From positions 1-35,979 of the forward strand of contig JAJCYI010000214.1 in assembly GCA_029263015.1 (NCBI GenBank): DNA of 35,979 bases. The letters run 5' to 3'. Each line of letters begins with the position of its first letter. The first letter of the stretch is position 1. This stretch comes from Saprospiraceae bacterium. GTDB taxonomy: Bacteria; Bacteroidota; Bacteroidia; Chitinophagales; Saprospiraceae. The notes under the pieces were generated by a model. It did no database searches and was not told where the DNA came from. It saw only the letters and a program-made list of their open reading frames with translations. This document shows positions 9,374-31,059 of this stretch, piece after piece. Both the position numbers and the translations under genes were made by a program.

Positions 9374-9424
9374 CGCCGCTTTATAAAAAAGCAAAATGAT
9401 AAAACAACGACATCAAAATTATTT

Positions 9425-9498
9425 TCCCCTGTAGCTCAGTTGGCTAGAGCGCCGGATTGTGGTTCCGGAGGTCAGCGGTTCAAGCCCGCTCGGGGGAA
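9425..9498 (+). tRNA. tRNA-His (anticodon GTG), lacking encoded G-1 and C73
   Basis: The cloverleaf folds fully. Acceptor TCCCCTG (9425-9431) pairs with CGGGGGA (9491-9497) with one T-G wobble. The D stem is GCTC/GAGC, the anticodon stem CCGGA/TCCGG around loop TTGTGGT (anticodon 9459-9461), and the T stem AGCGG/CCGCT. The base before the acceptor is T (9424) and the discriminator is A (9498). Almost all bacterial tRNA-His genes have G-1 paired with C73. CCA is not encoded. The cognate synthetase gene follows 124 bp downstream. Confidence 0.95.
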
Positions 9499-9499
9499 C

Positions 9500-9536
9500 A
9501 AAAGCATTATCCAAGTTATTCGGATAATGCTTTTTT
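9500..9536 (+). terminator. Intrinsic terminator after tRNA-His
   Basis: AAAAGCATTATCC at 9500-9512 pairs perfectly with 9522-9534 and runs into six T. It separates the tRNA transcript from hisS. Confidence 0.92.
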
Positions 9537-9595
9537 ATTTGTAGAAAATCAAAATAAGGAGCAGTGCATAAATAATTCACCCAAGAATGGTAATT

Positions 9596-9603
9596 TATTT
9601 TTG
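9596..9603 (+). promoter_or_regulatory. Possible -7 box for hisS
   Basis: TATTTTTG matches TAnnTTTG, 19 bp before the hisS ATG. No -33 match was found, so support is limited. A separate promoter is expected because a terminator precedes it. Confidence 0.35.
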
Positions 9604-9622
9604 AACTGGTCCTAAGCCAATT

Positions 9623-11182
9623 ATGGAAAGAGGAATTATTCCAAGGAAAATCAAGGGCTTCAGGGATATAGATGCTGACCTGAATGAACTCAGACAAAAA
9701 ATCATTAGTGCAGCTTCAAAAGTTTACAGGTCATATGGTTTTGAACATTGGGACACCCCAATGCTTGAATATGCTGATGCGATAGGCAAATATATGCCAG
9801 ATGAAGAGGCGGTTGACCAGGGTGTTTACAACTTTCGAAATCCAGAAGAAGAACCAATTCTTGGCGTGGATGGAAATGAAATTAGAGACGCAGAAGCAAA
9901 AGCCATAATGGAACACCAGGCAGTCGCCATGAGATACGACCTGACGGCACCATTGGCTAGGGTATATGCCGAGCGACTTTGGATGGATGTCAAAAAGAAA
10001 CAGGTCATGGAAACGAACCCACCTCTTTTCCGCCGTTTTCAATATGGTCCTGTTTACCGGTACGAACTCAAATTAGTGCCTGGCCGTTACCGGGAATTTT
10101 GGCAGTTGGATTTTGACTCCGTTGGGACAAAAGATGTGGCGGCTGATGCAGAAGCTTGCATTGTTTTATCAGATGCCCTTTCAGCCATTGGTATGGAAAA
10201 GGACACATTCATCGTAAAAGTGAACAACCGCAAAGTCCTAAAAGGGTTTCTTGCTTCAATTGGCATTGACGACGATGAACAGGAAGGTGCAGTACTGAGG
10301 GTGATTGACAAACTTGACAAGATTGGCTGGGAAGACATTGAAAAAGAATTGGGGAAGGGGAGAACAGACTCGTCAGGTGCAGAGATTTCTGGTTTAAGTC
10401 TGTCAAACACCTTGATTGAACAAATATTAAATTTCTTAAAAATAGCCACTGGTGTCGATTCTCGCAAAGAAGTGATTGCACGTTTGCAGAAATTAACCAA
10501 AGGAAATGAACTGGCCGAGGAAGGATTAGAGGAATTAATTAAAATGGATTCAATCTGGGACAACCTTGGGTTTGATGAACAACGCATCATTTTTGACCCT
10601 ACCTTGATGCGCGGCATGGCCTACTACACCGGCCCTGTCTTTGAAGTTGAATCATTATTGACCTATAAGGATAGGAAGGGTAAAACCAGAAAGATCGGTT
10701 CAATTTGTGGTGGTGGCCGATACGATGGGTTGGTTGAAAATTTATTAGGTTTGAAAGTGCCAGCCACTGGTGCTTCTATTGGAGTTGACCGTCTCGCTGC
10801 TATTTTACAAATGGCGAATCCAGATGAAGTAAAGGCACAAGGCCCTGTCCTCATTGCCTATTTTGATGACTCATTACTGAATGAATACCACAAAATTGCG
10901 AGGAAGTTGAGGCAGGCAGGAATCGATACAGAAGTTTATTGTGGTTATTTCAAAGGCTTCCGTAAAATGAAAAAGCAAATGGCCTATGCTGATAAAAAGA
11001 ATGCTCCCGCCGTTATTTTATTAGGAGGTGATGAGGCCGCTAAAGGTGTCGCTACAGTAAAAAACCTAAAGCTCGGAAAAGAGCTTTCAACTTCAATCAG
11101 CGATAAAAAGGAATGGATTTCGAAAGTGCAAAAAGAAGTGCCGTTGGGGGAATTGGTTGAATACATGAAAGAACATTTTTGA
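9623..11182 (+). CDS. hisS: Histidyl-tRNA synthetase, long form with altered motif 2 loop
   Basis: A 519-residue class II synthetase that charges tRNA-His. Visible: RYDLTAPLAR (motif near 115-125), motif 2 with Arg146, an enlarged insertion region (about 230-310), the histidine-binding RGMAYYTGPVFE (330-341), motif 3 GASIGVDRL (about 385-393), and a C-terminal anticodon-binding domain (about 410-519). E. coli HisRS is about 424 residues. The motif 2 loop reads RYELKLVPGRYR from residue 146, against RHERPQKGRYR in E. coli. The Arg-Pro-Gln stretch near the G-1/C73 end of the tRNA is gone and one residue is added. The downstream GRYREFWQLDFDSVG resembles the eukaryotic and alphaproteobacterial forms more than E. 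coli. It sits beside its own tRNA gene, whose G-1 and C73 are missing. Confidence 0.95.
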   Translation: MERGIIPRKIKGFRDIDADLNELRQKIISAASKVYRSYGFEHWDTPMLEYADAIGKYMPDEEAVDQGVYNFRNPEEEPILGVDGNEIRDAEAKAIMEHQAVAMRYDLTAPLARVYAERLWMDVKKKQVMETNPPLFRRFQYGPVYRYELKLVPGRYREFWQLDFDSVGTKDVAADAEACIVLSDALSAIGMEKDTFIVKVNNRKVLKGFLASIGIDDDEQEGAVLRVIDKLDKIGWEDIEKELGKGRTDSSGAEISGLSLSNTLIEQILNFLKIATGVDSRKEVIARLQKLTKGNELAEEGLEELIKMDSIWDNLGFDEQRIIFDPTLMRGMAYYTGPVFEVESLLTYKDRKGKTRKIGSICGGGRYDGLVENLLGLKVPATGASIGVDRLAAILQMANPDEVKAQGPVLIAYFDDSLLNEYHKIARKLRQAGIDTEVYCGYFKGFRKMKKQMAYADKKNAPAVILLGGDEAAKGVATVKNLKLGKELSTSISDKKEWISKVQKEVPLGELVEYMKEHF

Positions 11183-17914: not shown

Positions 17915-18946
17915 ATGGATTCCATTCAAATTGAAAAGTATTTTATTGATAAAATGGCGCTCCCGATTTTGGACGTGAGGTCACCGGGTGAATTCTCAAA
18001 AGGACATTTTCCGGGTGCTTTTAATATTCCATTGTTCAGTGACGACGAACGTGCAGAAGTAGGGACCTTGTACAAGCAAGTGAGTAAGGAGGCCGCTATG
18101 GCCAAGGGGCTTGATTTTGCAGGTAAAAAATTGACTTGGTACATTGAACAAACGCAAAATTTATCAGTAGGGAAGAACGTGATTATCCATTGTTGGCGTG
18201 GCGGAAGAAGAAGTGCAAGTATTGCTACCCTGTTGGAGTTTGTTGGATTCCATGTTAATACCATAATAGGAGGGTACAAGTCGTACCGTAAATTCGTGTT
18301 AAATCAATTTGATGAACGCCAGTTTAAGTTGATTGTATTGGGCGGAAAAACTGGGAGTGGGAAAACAGATGTTTTGAAATGTTTAATAGAGAAAGGAGAA
18401 CAAGTAATTGATTTAGAGGATCTTGCGAATCACAAAGGATCTGCTTTTGGAGCTTTGGGCGAAAAGCCGCAACCTACCGTGGAACAATTTGAAAACAATC
18501 TTTTTGATGCAATAAAAAACATGGACGCTGAGCGCCGGATTTGGATTGAAAATGAGAGTAAGAGCATTGGCCGCATGTTTGTGCCTCGTGGATTGTGGGA
18601 TCAATTATGTACTTCCATTTATATCGAACTTGCTGTACCGTTCGAAAATAGGGTAGATCGGTTGATCGATTTGTATGGCCATTTCCCGAAAGCAGACTTA
18701 ATCAACGCTATCCAAAAAATTCAGAAAAGGATGGGTGGGCAGAATGTGAAAAAAGCAATTGAATCATTTGAATCCGGAGATGTAAGAATGGCAACAGCGA
18801 TAGCCTTGAAATATTATGACAAAACCTATGAACATGCTTCTCATAAAAAACCATTTTCGGCTATAAACCAGTTGGTTTCACAAAATGATGATCCTGCCAA
18901 AACAGCAGATGAATTAATAACAATGGCCAATGACCAAAAATATTGA
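17915..18946 (+). CDS. mnmH: tRNA 2-selenouridine synthase
   Basis: A 343-residue enzyme (SelU/YbbB) that replaces sulfur with selenium in 2-thiouridine at the wobble base of some tRNAs, using selenophosphate. The N-terminal rhodanese domain has [17 protein letters not shown] (19-35) and the active Cys93 in [11 protein letters not shown]-loop GGKTGSGKT (143-151) follows and then a domain with the [13 protein letters not shown] block. The gene overlaps selD by 17 bp, so the two are translated together and supply their own selenium donor. This is the whole tRNA selenation route. No selA/selB or selenocysteine tRNA is in the window. Confidence 0.94.
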
Positions 18947-19985
18947 AACTCCAAAAATAAAACTGACCCAATATAGCCACGGTGCTGGTTGTGGATGCAA
19001 AATATCCCCAGGCATTTTGGACAAAATCCTTCACCAATCAGGCGCGAAAAAACATTTTGACCAATTATTGGTAGGAAATGAAGAACGCGACGATGCAGCC
19101 GTTTACGACCTTGGAGATGGGTCGGCAGTTATTAGCACGACCGATTTTTTCATGCCAATAGTTGATGACCCAAGTGACTTTGGACGGATTGCATCTGCCA
19201 ATGCCATCAGTGACATTTATGCAATGGGGGGCACACCTTTGCTCGCAATCGCCATCCTTGGTTGGCCAGTGAACAAGTTGCCGCCAAAAGTTGCGAACGA
19301 GGTGATAAAAGGCAGCCGTGAAACTTGTGCCGAGGCTGGCATCCCCCTCGCAGGTGGGCACAGTATTGATAGCCCAGAGCCAATATTTGGGCTTGCCGTT
19401 ACCGGAAAAATTGATCTCATTAATTTGAAAAAAAATGGTGGAGCGACCACGGGGTGTAAGCTTTATCTGACCAAACCGATTGGCGTTGGTATTTTGTCAA
19501 CTGCTCAAAAAAAGAAGAAGTTGAAACTGGAGCACAGCCATTTGGCCAGGGAGAATATGCTAAAACTGAACAGTATTGGGGAAGTGTTCGGAAAGCTACC
19601 TTTCGTGAAGGCCATGACGGATGTGACAGGCTTTGGTTTGTTTGGGCATTTATGCGAAATGTGTGAAGCATCTGATACGAGTGCGGTCATCAATTTTGAT
19701 AGTATTCCATTGCTCGACAAGCCAGCACTTGATTATTACCTGTCTGAAAATTGCATTCCTGGGGGCACCATCCGAAATTGGGACAGTTATCGTCACAAAG
19801 TTGGTGAAATCACAGACTATCAAAAAAATATTTGCTGTGATCCGCAAACCAGCGGTGGGTTATTGGTTGCTGTTGAAACTGATTCTGAAGTTCAATTTCT
19901 TGAAATAGCGAAAGCAAATGGATTTCATTTGGAATGTATTGGAGCAATGAAGCCGAGGGAGGCCCAACTGATTTACTTAAAATAA
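18930..19985 (+). CDS. selD: Selenide, water dikinase (selenophosphate synthetase)
   Basis: A 351-residue ATP-dependent enzyme making selenophosphate from selenide. The N-terminus has SHGAGCGCK, placing the catalytic Cys21 and Lys24 at the equivalents of E. coli Cys17 and Lys20; it is a Cys form, with no in-frame TGA. AIRS-type motifs follow: [38 protein letters not shown] and the C-terminal [11 protein letters not shown]. The start ATG lies inside the end of mnmH (17-bp overlap), so the product is coupled to it and mainly serves selenouridine synthesis. Length and motif order are typical. Confidence 0.95.
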
Positions 19986-27756: not shown

Positions 27757-30700
27757 ATGATTATGAACCGAAGATTTATTTATCTACTCAACGCCCTTTT
27801 CCTGACCTTTTTTTTGAATTCCATTCATGCTCAATGCGTCATTGATAATGTTGTTGCAGAGGCTGGTAACTGTGATGGCGGGGTGTTTTATGTCACCATC
27901 AACTTTAATTATGACAATGTCGGAAATGAAGGATTCAAGGTGCAAGGCAACGGAGGCAATTATGGTAATTTCAATTACAATGATTTACCAATAACTGTGG
28001 GCCCACTTGATGGTGATGGGGTTACTGTATATGAGTTCGTGGTGATAGACAACCAGTTCAACGATTGTAGTGCTTTTGATGCTGTAGGCCCAATAAACTG
28101 TGGCACTTGTGAACTCTTTGATCTTTCTTTAACTCCTGGAGATTGCAATAGTAATGGCAATTATAACTTGACCATAAATTTCGGGTATGAGAATCCTACT
28201 CATACTCATTTTGATGTAATTTATGACAATGAGGTAATCGGCTTTTTTGAATTAGCGGAGCTACCTATTACGATTGAGAATTTTGAAGATAATGGAGAAA
28301 ACACGCCTTTTATTCAAGTATGTATCAACGACAATCCCGACTGCTGTGTAAGCGACGAGTTTATTGCCCCAAATTGTGGGGGCGGTTGTGAAATTTGGGA
28401 TTTGCATTCCCCAAATTTTGAGTGCGATGGCGACAACTTGTTTATTGTTCTAGATTTCAACTACGCCAATGTGGGCAATGATGGCTTCTCAGTGGTTGGC
28501 AATGGGGTCAATTATGGGACCTTTTCTTATAATGATCTTCCAATCGTGCTCGGCCCTTTACCTGCAAACGGAACATTCTATGAGTTTATAGTGCAAGACT
28601 CCAACCACCCCGATTGCTCTGACTTTATTGAATACGGTGTGGTGGATTGTGGCAGTGGCGATTGCAATATTCATGACTTGGTTGTGGAAGTCGGGGACTG
28701 CAACAACGACGGTTCTTACAATTTATGGATTAATTTTGAACATAATAATGCTTCCAACGACCTGTTCGATGTCATTTACGAAAACCAAATAATCGGCACC
28801 TTCCACCTGAACGAACTACCGATTTGGATAGAACATTTTGTGGACAATGGCGAGCCTAACCAGGGTCTGTTGATTTGTATAAATGACAACCCCAATTGCT
28901 GCGAAGATGTCGGTTTTGAAGCACCAAATTGTGATGGGGCAGGAGATTGTGAGTTTTGGGACTTTTTTGCAGAAGCCCATCCTTGCGACGATGATGGCTT
29001 GTACATGCTCGATTTTGAATTCAATGCAGAAAACGTTGGTTCTGAGGGATTTTTCGTGATTGCGAATGGCGTGGACTACGGGCCTTTCGAGTACAATGAA
29101 TTGTTTTACACCATTGGCCCATTGCATGGAGGAGTTGTTTATGAAATATTGATCCAGGATGTGGCACATCCCGATTGCCATTATTGGAATGAGTTCGGAC
29201 CTATCTTTTGCGACGACAATTGCCATATTTACAACCTGACTGCGGAACTTTCCGATTGCGATGATGAGGGGCAGTTTTTTGTTTCCCTTGATTTTGATTT
29301 TGTTAATACTGGCAACGATGGTTTTAAGGTTGCCGGGAATGGAAATGTATATGGTTTTTTCGGTTACGATGACGTGCCCCTTATTTTGGGACCATTCGAA
29401 TCTGGAGCTTTTGATGCCATGGAATTTGTGGTAACAGACACACAACATCCTGATTGTGGTGATGCAGTTGAAATAATGGTGCCTGATTGTGATGGTAATA
29501 GTAATTGTTCAATATCAGAGATCGTGGCAGACGTTACTGATTGTTTTGACGATGGGACATTTTACGTGGTACTTGAGTTTGAGTATTCGAACACCAGCAA
29601 TATTGGATTCCGGGTCGATGGCAATGGCATCAACTATGGGCTGTTCGGTTATGATGAGCTGCCAGTTAGCATAGGACCGCTTGTCGGAAATGGGACCACT
29701 CCTTATGAATTTGTTGTGTCCGACCTCAACCACCCTGATTGTGCTGGTTTTGTTGAAGTAGGACTAATTGATTGTGATATTTCTGGCGATTGCGCTATCA
29801 CTGACTTGGTTGTTGATCCTGGAAGTTGTCACAATGATGGCACGTACAATCTCTGGTTAAATTTTGAGTATCAAAATTCCAATAACATCTATTTCGATGT
29901 CATTTACAATGGCCAAATAATAGATTATTTTCCATTAGCGAGCCTACCGGTAGTGATCTCCCATTTCCAGGGCGATGGTAACCCTGTGCAGGAAATCACG
30001 GTGTGCATCAACGATAATGATGATTGCTGTGCCACCGTTGAGTTTGATGACCCACAGTGCATGGGGCCTAATATTACCTGGCCAGGTGATGTTGATTTCA
30101 ATAATATTACCAACAATTTTGATCTTTTGAACTTGGGTGTTGCTTATTTGGCAGAAGGTCCTCCGAGGCCAATGGATGGTATTGACTGGCAAGAATTTGA
30201 TTCGCCCAATTGGGATATGGAATTTGCCAATAACCTTAATTTTAAACATGCGGACTGCAACGGCGACGGTATTGTGGACAAACAGGATATTCAAGCCATT
30301 GTGTTTAATTACAATAAGACGCATGGCGATGCCGCACCTCCTATTTTATTGGGTGGCGACGAGAATGACCCACCATTTTTTGCTGACTTGCCGAGTGCAG
30401 ATGTTCTCAGTCCTGGCAACCAGTTTTTCGCCCCAATCTTGTTGGGTATTGACGGTAATCCGGTCAATAATATTTATGGTATTGCTTTCACTTTGGAATT
30501 TGACCCAGAAGTGATCGACCCTTTAAGTATTGAATTGCAACTCGACGGGGGCTGGTTGGGTGTGCCCGATTTGGACTTGTTGACGCTGGATAAATCTTTT
30601 GCAGCATCAGGTAGGATAGAAGTAGCTTTGGTACGTTCAAACCAAAATGGCGTTTCTGGTTTTGGACAAATCTTAGGGTTCATTGGTATAATCGACAATA

Positions 30701-31059
30701 TTGCAGGAAAGGAAGAATTAAAGATCGAAATAACTAATGTTAAAGCCATTGAGGCCAATGAAACTTTGATCCCGCTCTACCGACCAGTCGAGATTGTTGA
30801 CTTTTCTGTTGGAACGAAAGAGGCGAGAACTGGTATCTTCAAAGTTTTCCCAAATCCTGCCTCGGATTACATTTTCCTGCAACATCCCAATTCGCTGCAA
30901 ATTAAATCTGTAGTGGTTAAAGATATGAATGGAAGGATATTGATGGTAGAATCAGCCAACGACCAAAAGTTGAACATCGATAAATTGCCAACAGGTGTTT
31001 TTGTCCTGGAAATTGAAACCAAAGATGGAATCTTTTTCGAGCGGGTGGTGAAAATTTAG
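27757..31059 (+). CDS. Giant repetitive surface protein with dockerin-like, cohesin-like and T9SS sorting modules
   Basis: A 1100-residue secreted protein. The signal peptide ends at HAQ (about residue 25); an ATG two codons in is an alternative start. Eight cysteine-bounded repeats of about 92 residues fill residues 27-768. They form two classes, A (GFxVxGNGxNYGxFxYNDLP) and B (FDVIYxNxIIGxFxLxxLP with an ICINDNPxCC end), in the order A-B-A-B-A-A-A-B. A dockerin-like calcium-loop pair follows (DVDFNNITNNFD near 778; DCNGDGIVDKQD at 833-844) with a long insert, then a cohesin-like domain (about 885-1010). The end is a type A T9SS tail (VFPNPASDYIF to VVKI). Export is through the outer membrane by T9SS. 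Ligand is unknown. Confidence 0.88.
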   Translation: MIMNRRFIYLLNALFLTFFLNSIHAQCVIDNVVAEAGNCDGGVFYVTINFNYDNVGNEGFKVQGNGGNYGNFNYNDLPITVGPLDGDGVTVYEFVVIDNQFNDCSAFDAVGPINCGTCELFDLSLTPGDCNSNGNYNLTINFGYENPTHTHFDVIYDNEVIGFFELAELPITIENFEDNGENTPFIQVCINDNPDCCVSDEFIAPNCGGGCEIWDLHSPNFECDGDNLFIVLDFNYANVGNDGFSVVGNGVNYGTFSYNDLPIVLGPLPANGTFYEFIVQDSNHPDCSDFIEYGVVDCGSGDCNIHDLVVEVGDCNNDGSYNLWINFEHNNASNDLFDVIYENQIIGTFHLNELPIWIEHFVDNGEPNQGLLICINDNPNCCEDVGFEAPNCDGAGDCEFWDFFAEAHPCDDDGLYMLDFEFNAENVGSEGFFVIANGVDYGPFEYNELFYTIGPLHGGVVYEILIQDVAHPDCHYWNEFGPIFCDDNCHIYNLTAELSDCDDEGQFFVSLDFDFVNTGNDGFKVAGNGNVYGFFGYDDVPLILGPFESGAFDAMEFVVTDTQHPDCGDAVEIMVPDCDGNSNCSISEIVADVTDCFDDGTFYVVLEFEYSNTSNIGFRVDGNGINYGLFGYDELPVSIGPLVGNGTTPYEFVVSDLNHPDCAGFVEVGLIDCDISGDCAITDLVVDPGSCHNDGTYNLWLNFEYQNSNNIYFDVIYNGQIIDYFPLASLPVVISHFQGDGNPVQEITVCINDNDDCCATVEFDDPQCMGPNITWPGDVDFNNITNNFDLLNLGVAYLAEGPPRPMDGIDWQEFDSPNWDMEFANNLNFKHADCNGDGIVDKQDIQAIVFNYNKTHGDAAPPILLGGDENDPPFFADLPSADVLSPGNQFFAPILLGIDGNPVNNIYGIAFTLEFDPEVIDPLSIELQLDGGWLGVPDLDLLTLDKSFAASGRIEVALVRSNQNGVSGFGQILGFIGIIDNIAGKEELKIEITNVKAIEANETLIPLYRPVEIVDFSVGTKEARTGIFKVFPNPASDYIFLQHPNSLQIKSVVVKDMNGRILMVESANDQKLNIDKLPTGVFVLEIETKDGIFFERVVKI
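27835..30060 (+). repeat. Eight tandem protein repeats of about 278 bp (A-B-A-B-A-A-A-B)
   Basis: Each repeat begins with C-x-I/L-x-D/E and ends at a Cys near the next. Class A carries GNDGF-type and NYGxF-type motifs and an HPDC end; class B carries FDVIY and a ICINDN-DCC end. DNA copies have diverged, so they are old or were shuffled, not recent duplications. Confidence 0.85.

Follow-up and report, generated by a model that had tools for sequence, protein, structure and literature searches.

A tRNA-His without G-1 and C73 beside a divergent histidyl-tRNA synthetase in Saprospiraceae, and related pairs in other bacterial phyla

Textbooks treat G-1, once held to be nearly universal, as the hallmark of tRNA-His; known bacterial systems that lack it include the alphaproteobacterial tRNA-His and histidyl-tRNA synthetase (HisRS) of Caulobacter crescentus, the RRCH clade and most SAR11. 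A stretch of 35,979 nucleotides from a Saprospiraceae bacterium (assembly GCA_029263015.1, contig JAJCYI010000214.1; hereafter the window) carries a tRNA-His gene lacking G-1 beside a hisS gene with an altered motif 2 loop. This locus raises the question of whether a member of the Bacteroidota rewired the identity of tRNA-His independently, as the initial annotation proposed, or shares a G-1-less system with other bacteria.

The tRNA-His gene and hisS in the window

Positions 1 to 73 of the tRNA-His (GTG) gene span 9425..9498 on the forward strand, as determined from the sequence, ARAGORN and an Rfam tRNA search, with the anticodon GTG at 9459..9461 (position 35 of the gene in ARAGORN) and the ARAGORN end at 9499. 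As initially described, a U precedes the acceptor stem and the discriminator is A: position -1 (9424..9424, forward strand) is T in place of G, A73 lies at 9498, and the stem is intact with 7/7 pairs, one of them G-U, beginning with U1:A72 and C2:G71. Both G-1 and C73 of the canonical bacterial pair are absent, and CCA is not encoded. The hisS gene (9623..11182) lies on the same strand and starts 124 bases past the ARAGORN end, the spacing that had been annotated. Between the two genes is a terminator-like hairpin with a T-run (9500..9536, forward strand, -15.1 kcal/mol), which was not flagged by a simple terminator scan and was found in a comparison of loci. As this hairpin and T-run occurred in 12/12 same-genus loci listed, the window tRNA-His is probably transcribed separately from hisS. 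No such hairpin was seen in two Acidobacteria/Aminicenantes loci (L059, L072), where the distance from the tRNA to the hisS start is 42-43 bases.

The hisS product is a 519-aa HisRS of a predicted G-1-independent type, assigned from its ORF, NCBIfam match, structure model and tree position, and its NCBIfam hisS score of 324.5 bits is above the cut-off of 286.75. Solved HisRS structures were the best structure matches of its AlphaFold2 model (mean pLDDT 82.5), in which the motif 2 loop ELKLVPGRYR (residues 148-157; 10064..10093, forward strand) is the turn joining motif 2 strands 136-148 and 155-167. Read as E-LKLVP-GRYR against canonical PQ[KR]GR, the loop has one residue more and has lost its Gln, bearing out the annotated change, and the canonical motif RPQ[KR]G is absent from the window HisRS. 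Family and order relatives serving as Bacteroidota controls kept PQ[KR]GR in 16/16 enzymes examined (RPQ in 14, KPQ or NPQ in 2), in agreement with the initial annotation, which had many Bacteroidota HisRS retain the RPQKG loop. The accompanying suggestion of a special eukaryote likeness was not supported, with a profile of the clade scoring Nostoc HisRS at 271 bits and the human and Elizabethkingia enzymes at 255 bits each; eukaryote likeness was judged by these profile scores, and the HisRS trees contained no eukaryote.

Elsewhere in the window, genes for a rhodanese-domain protein and then an AIR-synthase-like protein (17915-19985; Pfam domains) are probably those of tRNA 2-selenouridine synthase and selenide water dikinase, names based on order and size. 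Positions 27757-31059 encode an 1100-aa protein with repeated similar units in its translation and a C-terminal Por_Secre_tail sorting domain.

Copy number in the genome and occurrence in the genus and family

The genome containing the window is given by the tools used as 100% complete with 1.59% contamination, and carries one HisRS. A second tRNA-His, for which the initial annotation had proposed a search, was not found in this genome by Rfam tRNA matches (36 in all, namely the window tRNA-His and 35 others, none of them His), by pattern searches, which gave one true match, or by an RNA model search, which ranked the window gene first and a tRNA-Asn next. tRNA-Ile-GAT is missing among the 36 matches, indicating that the tRNA set is incompletely assembled and that an assembly gap is possible.

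Of 13 same-genus relatives, 11 encode a full divergent HisRS (69-80% identity), one encodes a fragment and one, which is 85% complete, has none. The tRNA-His genes of 12 relatives, together with that of the window, all lie upstream of the HisRS gene, have A73 and lack G-1, so that 13 genomes of the genus, own included, hold the same linked pair. The same HisRS in 12/13 relatives together with 12 linked G-1-less tRNAs is more than chance would give. Across the 13 tRNA-His genes of the genus, A73 is invariant, position -1 is T in 11 and A in 2, and the 1:72 pair is C:G in 11 and U:A in 2, the window being one of the latter. Candidate second tRNA-His genes in two relatives were rejected: a pattern match in G010 was due to chance, and that in G004 (L140, G004:C18:31600-31900) was a tRNA fragment, possibly a remnant, with a D-arm and a GTG anticodon arm but no T-arm. 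A second copy in G003 is cut by a contig end.

Among 23 other genomes of the family, the divergent HisRS occurred only in G035 (58% identity, one further genus), whose tRNA-His reads T-1/A73; 21 encode a canonical HisRS with 31-38% identity to that of the window, and one gave no match. Other family and order relatives had G-1 and C73 in 36/36 tRNA-His genes read, including two genomes (G022, G050) with no HisRS match; the tRNA-His of 10 of the 60 genomes was left out of these readings (G011, G021, G023, G024, G038, G041, G042, G046, G047 and G058). The loss of G-1/C73 and the loop change therefore co-occur in a clade, as the initial annotation had anticipated, and neither a second G-1/C73 tRNA-His nor a relative combining the same loop with a canonical tRNA was found for this genome or genus.

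Distribution and tRNA identity positions of the divergent type

We termed this HisRS type A, defined by HisRS score and backed by trees for the rows included. When named genomes were scanned with an alignment from the genus, the best 80 of 91 relatives yielded 79 loci. Among these best 80, divergent HisRS with 54-80% identity were found in records titled Saprospiraceae, Bacteroidales, Chlorobi, Ignavibacteria, Acidobacteria, Aminicenantes and Kapabacteria, among others, while Alphaproteobacteria and one Phycisphaerae bacterium had more distant ones (36-40%); roughly the final twelve of the 79 loci were weaker matches from other groups. At a threshold of at least 237 bits to the window HisRS, the type was present in 13/96 alphaproteobacteria and 9/119 Planctomycetota sampled, one of the latter matching in two pieces. 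Within the window's phylum the enzyme type is rare and patchy, with matches at E 1e-70 in 10/395 genomes. The type-A set comprised 82 genomes: 13 of the window genus, G035, 42 named FCB-group and related genomes, 17 alphaproteobacteria and 9 planctomycetes. A survey of openly available full-text literature, by titles and the beginnings of abstracts, returned no description of a G-1-less tRNA-His in Bacteroidota, Chlorobi, Ignavibacteria, Acidobacteria or Planctomycetota.

Nearly all of the named records are titled as MAGs, which would fit an error of assembly or binning, or a pseudo-tRNA in a genome whose functional pair lies at another place. This is extremely improbable, however, given that numerous distinct records have the same linked pair on a single contig, that one HisRS is present in a genome given as fully complete, and that the tRNA stem is intact. 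A Kapabacteria MAG (G106) that looks mixed holds both enzyme types and both tRNA types and was left out of the 82 genomes for holding both systems; the loop of its type-A HisRS fragment is EESIDPGR. Another MAG, G071, has two type-A HisRS genes (L053 and L089, the second match with a stop), each with a tRNA-His, and an additional tRNA-His (L183) read by eye as G-1/C73; it is likely a mixed bin. Six further loci of the window's phylum, known from HisRS alone (L326-L331; f39, f46), fall inside the clade near the Phycisphaerae locus L094 and have the loop ADKPDPGR.

Motif 2 loops differed between groups. All 54 FCB-group type-A enzymes listed have E.[KD]LxPGR, type-A alphaproteobacteria have NEKPGPGR in 14/17 and close variants in the rest, and type-A planctomycetes have EKPG[PL]GR, EKPGLAR, EKPEPGR or DKPGPGR. 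In the alphaproteobacterial HisRS the change is one of Gln123 to Gly123, according to PMC3937112; the ELKLVPGR-like FCB loop has also lost the Gln, is one residue longer than the alphaproteobacterial loop and has no clear Gly at the Gln site. Loops without Gln were also found in canonical enzymes, PA[KR]G in L240, L243 and L247 and PGKG in L222, and the respective genomes (G308, G290, G268 and G144) encode G-1/C73, showing that a missing Gln is not by itself a predictor of the tRNA type.

tRNA-His was readable in 71/82 type-A genomes, 70 by script and G293 by eye after a model search (none was recovered in 11/82), and was without C73 in all 71, aside from the additional G-1/C73 gene of G071, whereas G-1 and C73 were present in 58/58 controls (36 Bacteroidota, 14 alphaproteobacteria and 8 planctomycetes). 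In the 71 genes from the 70 script-read genomes, position 73 was A in 65, G in 4, U in 2 and C in none; position -1 was U in 56 and otherwise A, C or G; and C2:G71 was found in 71/71. The G293 gene reads U-1, G1:U72 and A73. Three type-A alphaproteobacteria have G before position 1 together with A73. G084 combines G-1 with A73, and the stretch holding this tRNA has 62% GC, compared with 48% around the G084 hisS. A73, no G-1 and a divergent body are also seen in further GTG tRNA genes of G060, G063 and G064 (L196, L197 and L198). Two of these three genes lie beside a tRNA-Ile, and the body is identical between G063 and G064. The three, possibly parts of mobile tRNA arrays, were left out of the 71-gene counts as additional genes with an odd body.

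The 1:72 pair is G:U in 14/14 alphaproteobacteria, 8/8 parsed planctomycetes, 6/6 Ignavibacteria and 3/3 Chlorobi, and a tRNA-His with U72 and without C73 is common to Chlorobi, Ignavibacteria, Acidobacteria, planctomycetes and alphaproteobacteria. The review PMC9976931 gives A73, U72 and the anticodon as the identity of C. crescentus tRNA-His. The window tRNA has A72 in place of U72, and the A72 or G72 of the window genus, set against this identity element of C. crescentus, points to a further change in the window group.

The prevalence of U at position -1 bears on whether this base persists in the mature tRNA. G-1:C73 might have been swapped for U-1:A73, with RNase P cutting before U-1 to leave an 8-pair acceptor stem. 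U-1 was found in 25/32 of the type-A genes clustered at 88%, compared with 20/49 other tRNAs (p 0.001, clustered), and in 11/14 type-A alphaproteobacteria; -1:73 was pairable in 26/32 clusters compared with 27/49 other tRNAs (p 0.018), and the exceptional U73 and G73 occurred with A-1 (2/2) and U-1 (4/4), respectively. U-1 being commoner than in the 49 other tRNAs keeps a retained -1 base among the explanations, but as an unlikely one. The -1:73 positions are unpairable in 13/71 genes (A-A, C-A or G-A), the control of 49 tRNAs is small and mixed, being limited to script-parsable genes, and the clusters are non-independent. Bacterial RNase P, moreover, generally favours U-1. Alphaproteobacterial tRNA-His, for its part, is described in a review (PMC4284800) as lacking the G-1 residue and any enzyme adding it.

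Eukaryotes add G-1 opposite A73 through Thg1. A comparable post-transcriptional addition by an enzyme not recognised here would suit the A73 of the window tRNA, and 3/9 type-A Planctomycetota (L290, L291 and L292; G311, G275 and G293) encode a Thg1-family protein (104-117 bits) though their tRNA-His matches the G-1-less type. This is nevertheless a very remote prospect for the window. The search for Thg1 that the initial annotation had called for found none in the genome itself or in 59 relatives (0/60), nor in the 42 named FCB-group and related genomes, with the archaeal control (Methanosarcina acetivorans in the first set) detected both times; the searches took in 3 of the 17 type-A alphaproteobacteria.

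Linkage, phylogeny and comparison with known systems

In the window's branch, tRNA-His lay at most 400 bp upstream of hisS in 37/51 FCB-group loci and was unlinked in the other 14/51. The same arrangement was found in 3/8 planctomycetal loci with that much flank, in 0/16 alphaproteobacterial loci, and in 0/24 canonical loci with a 400-bp flank (0/27 counting shorter flanks). Linkage in 37/51 loci, as opposed to 0/24 canonical ones, points to probable movement of the two genes together as a cassette.

A second HisRS tree of 62 rows, which left out the four long end branches of the first tree and the E. coli-type alphaproteobacteria, placed the 49 type-A rows in one clade (support 100/99). Within it, the FCB group (100/100) is sister to the alphaproteobacteria and planctomycetes, with 100/99 for the joint 42-row clade; the alphaproteobacteria were supported at 99/97, and together with eight planctomycetes at 98/95. 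As in the first tree, alphaproteobacteria nest inside the planctomycetal rows, and planctomycetes formed a single group in 0% of 200 bootstrap trees. In 34/35 cases, with one tie, a type-A tRNA from Bacteroidota resembled type-A tRNAs from other phyla more than it did the canonical tRNA-His of Bacteroidota, a closeness for which shared selection is an alternative cause. Given a common clade with the alphaproteobacterial and planctomycetal G-1-less types, an independent invention in Bacteroidota, the parallel rewiring initially proposed, is not supported. An independent loss, with HisRS changing in parallel to that of alphaproteobacteria, would account for the difference of the window loop from NEKPGPGR in detail and length and for the missing U72 of the window genus, but is very unlikely in view of this clade and of the U72 tRNA without C73 shared across phyla.

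We consider it highly probable, judging from sequence, that the window encodes a matched G-1:C73-independent pair of the same origin as the Caulobacter system, which spread between phyla as a linked cassette and replaced the resident pair. The direction of this putative transfer is taken from nesting only. The absence of G-1/C73, the loop change, the single HisRS and tRNA-His found, the linkage, the co-distribution and the common clade are read from the sequences. The tRNA-His and hisS genes would have been transferred together, RNase P would cut at +1 as in ordinary tRNAs to leave no -1 base, and HisRS may read the anticodon, A73 and perhaps C2:G71, its changed loop presumably no longer needing a G-1:C73 end. 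The window group, with C1:G72 or U1:A72, would have dropped the U72 used by the Caulobacter enzyme.

Evenly poised, in our view, is the broader proposal of a self-contained cassette, probably orthogonal to the canonical pair, that moved across at least six phyla and gave rise to the alphaproteobacterial G-1-less system through a planctomycete-like rather than a eukaryotic donor, with the Saprospiraceae identity set still changing, including the loss of U72. The phylum count follows record names and is lower under GTDB, which puts Ignavibacteria in the window's phylum. An enzyme and tRNA arriving together would offer a route for changing an identity rule without a lethal intermediate, and natural pairs in several phyla form a set for testing which bases replace G-1.

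Compared with the canonical bacterial system of E. coli and the rest of the family, the window pair shares the class II HisRS fold and domains and the anticodon GTG, but lacks G-1/C73 and RPQKG, and its enzyme is distant from those of the 21 family relatives. As in eukaryotic tRNA-His, which receives G-1 from Thg1, A73 is present and G-1 is not encoded; unlike the eukaryotic system, no Thg1 was found in the genomes searched, and by profile score the human enzyme was no nearer than bacterial ones. Trypanosomes and Acanthamoeba have G-1-less cytosolic tRNA-His, according to PMC4284800 and PMC9976931, and would resemble the window in having a HisRS that works without G-1, although the Trypanosoma enzyme scores lower with the profile (176-180 bits compared with 271 for Nostoc) and is thus more distant. 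The window pair resembles the alphaproteobacterial pair in the absence of an encoded G-1, A73, a loop without Gln, no Thg1 and HisRS of the same clade. It differs in that U72 is found in 14/14 alphaproteobacteria whereas the tRNAs of the window genus have A72 or G72, the window loop is one residue longer (ELKLxPGR-like as opposed to EKPGPGR), and tRNA and hisS are linked in the window group but unlinked in 16/16 alphaproteobacteria. Orthogonality between the pairs of Caulobacter and E. coli is reported in PMC3875453, and type-A pairs may therefore be further orthogonal pairs. Known before was the alphaproteobacterial G-1-less pair; here, a predicted pair of the same kind is present in several other phyla.
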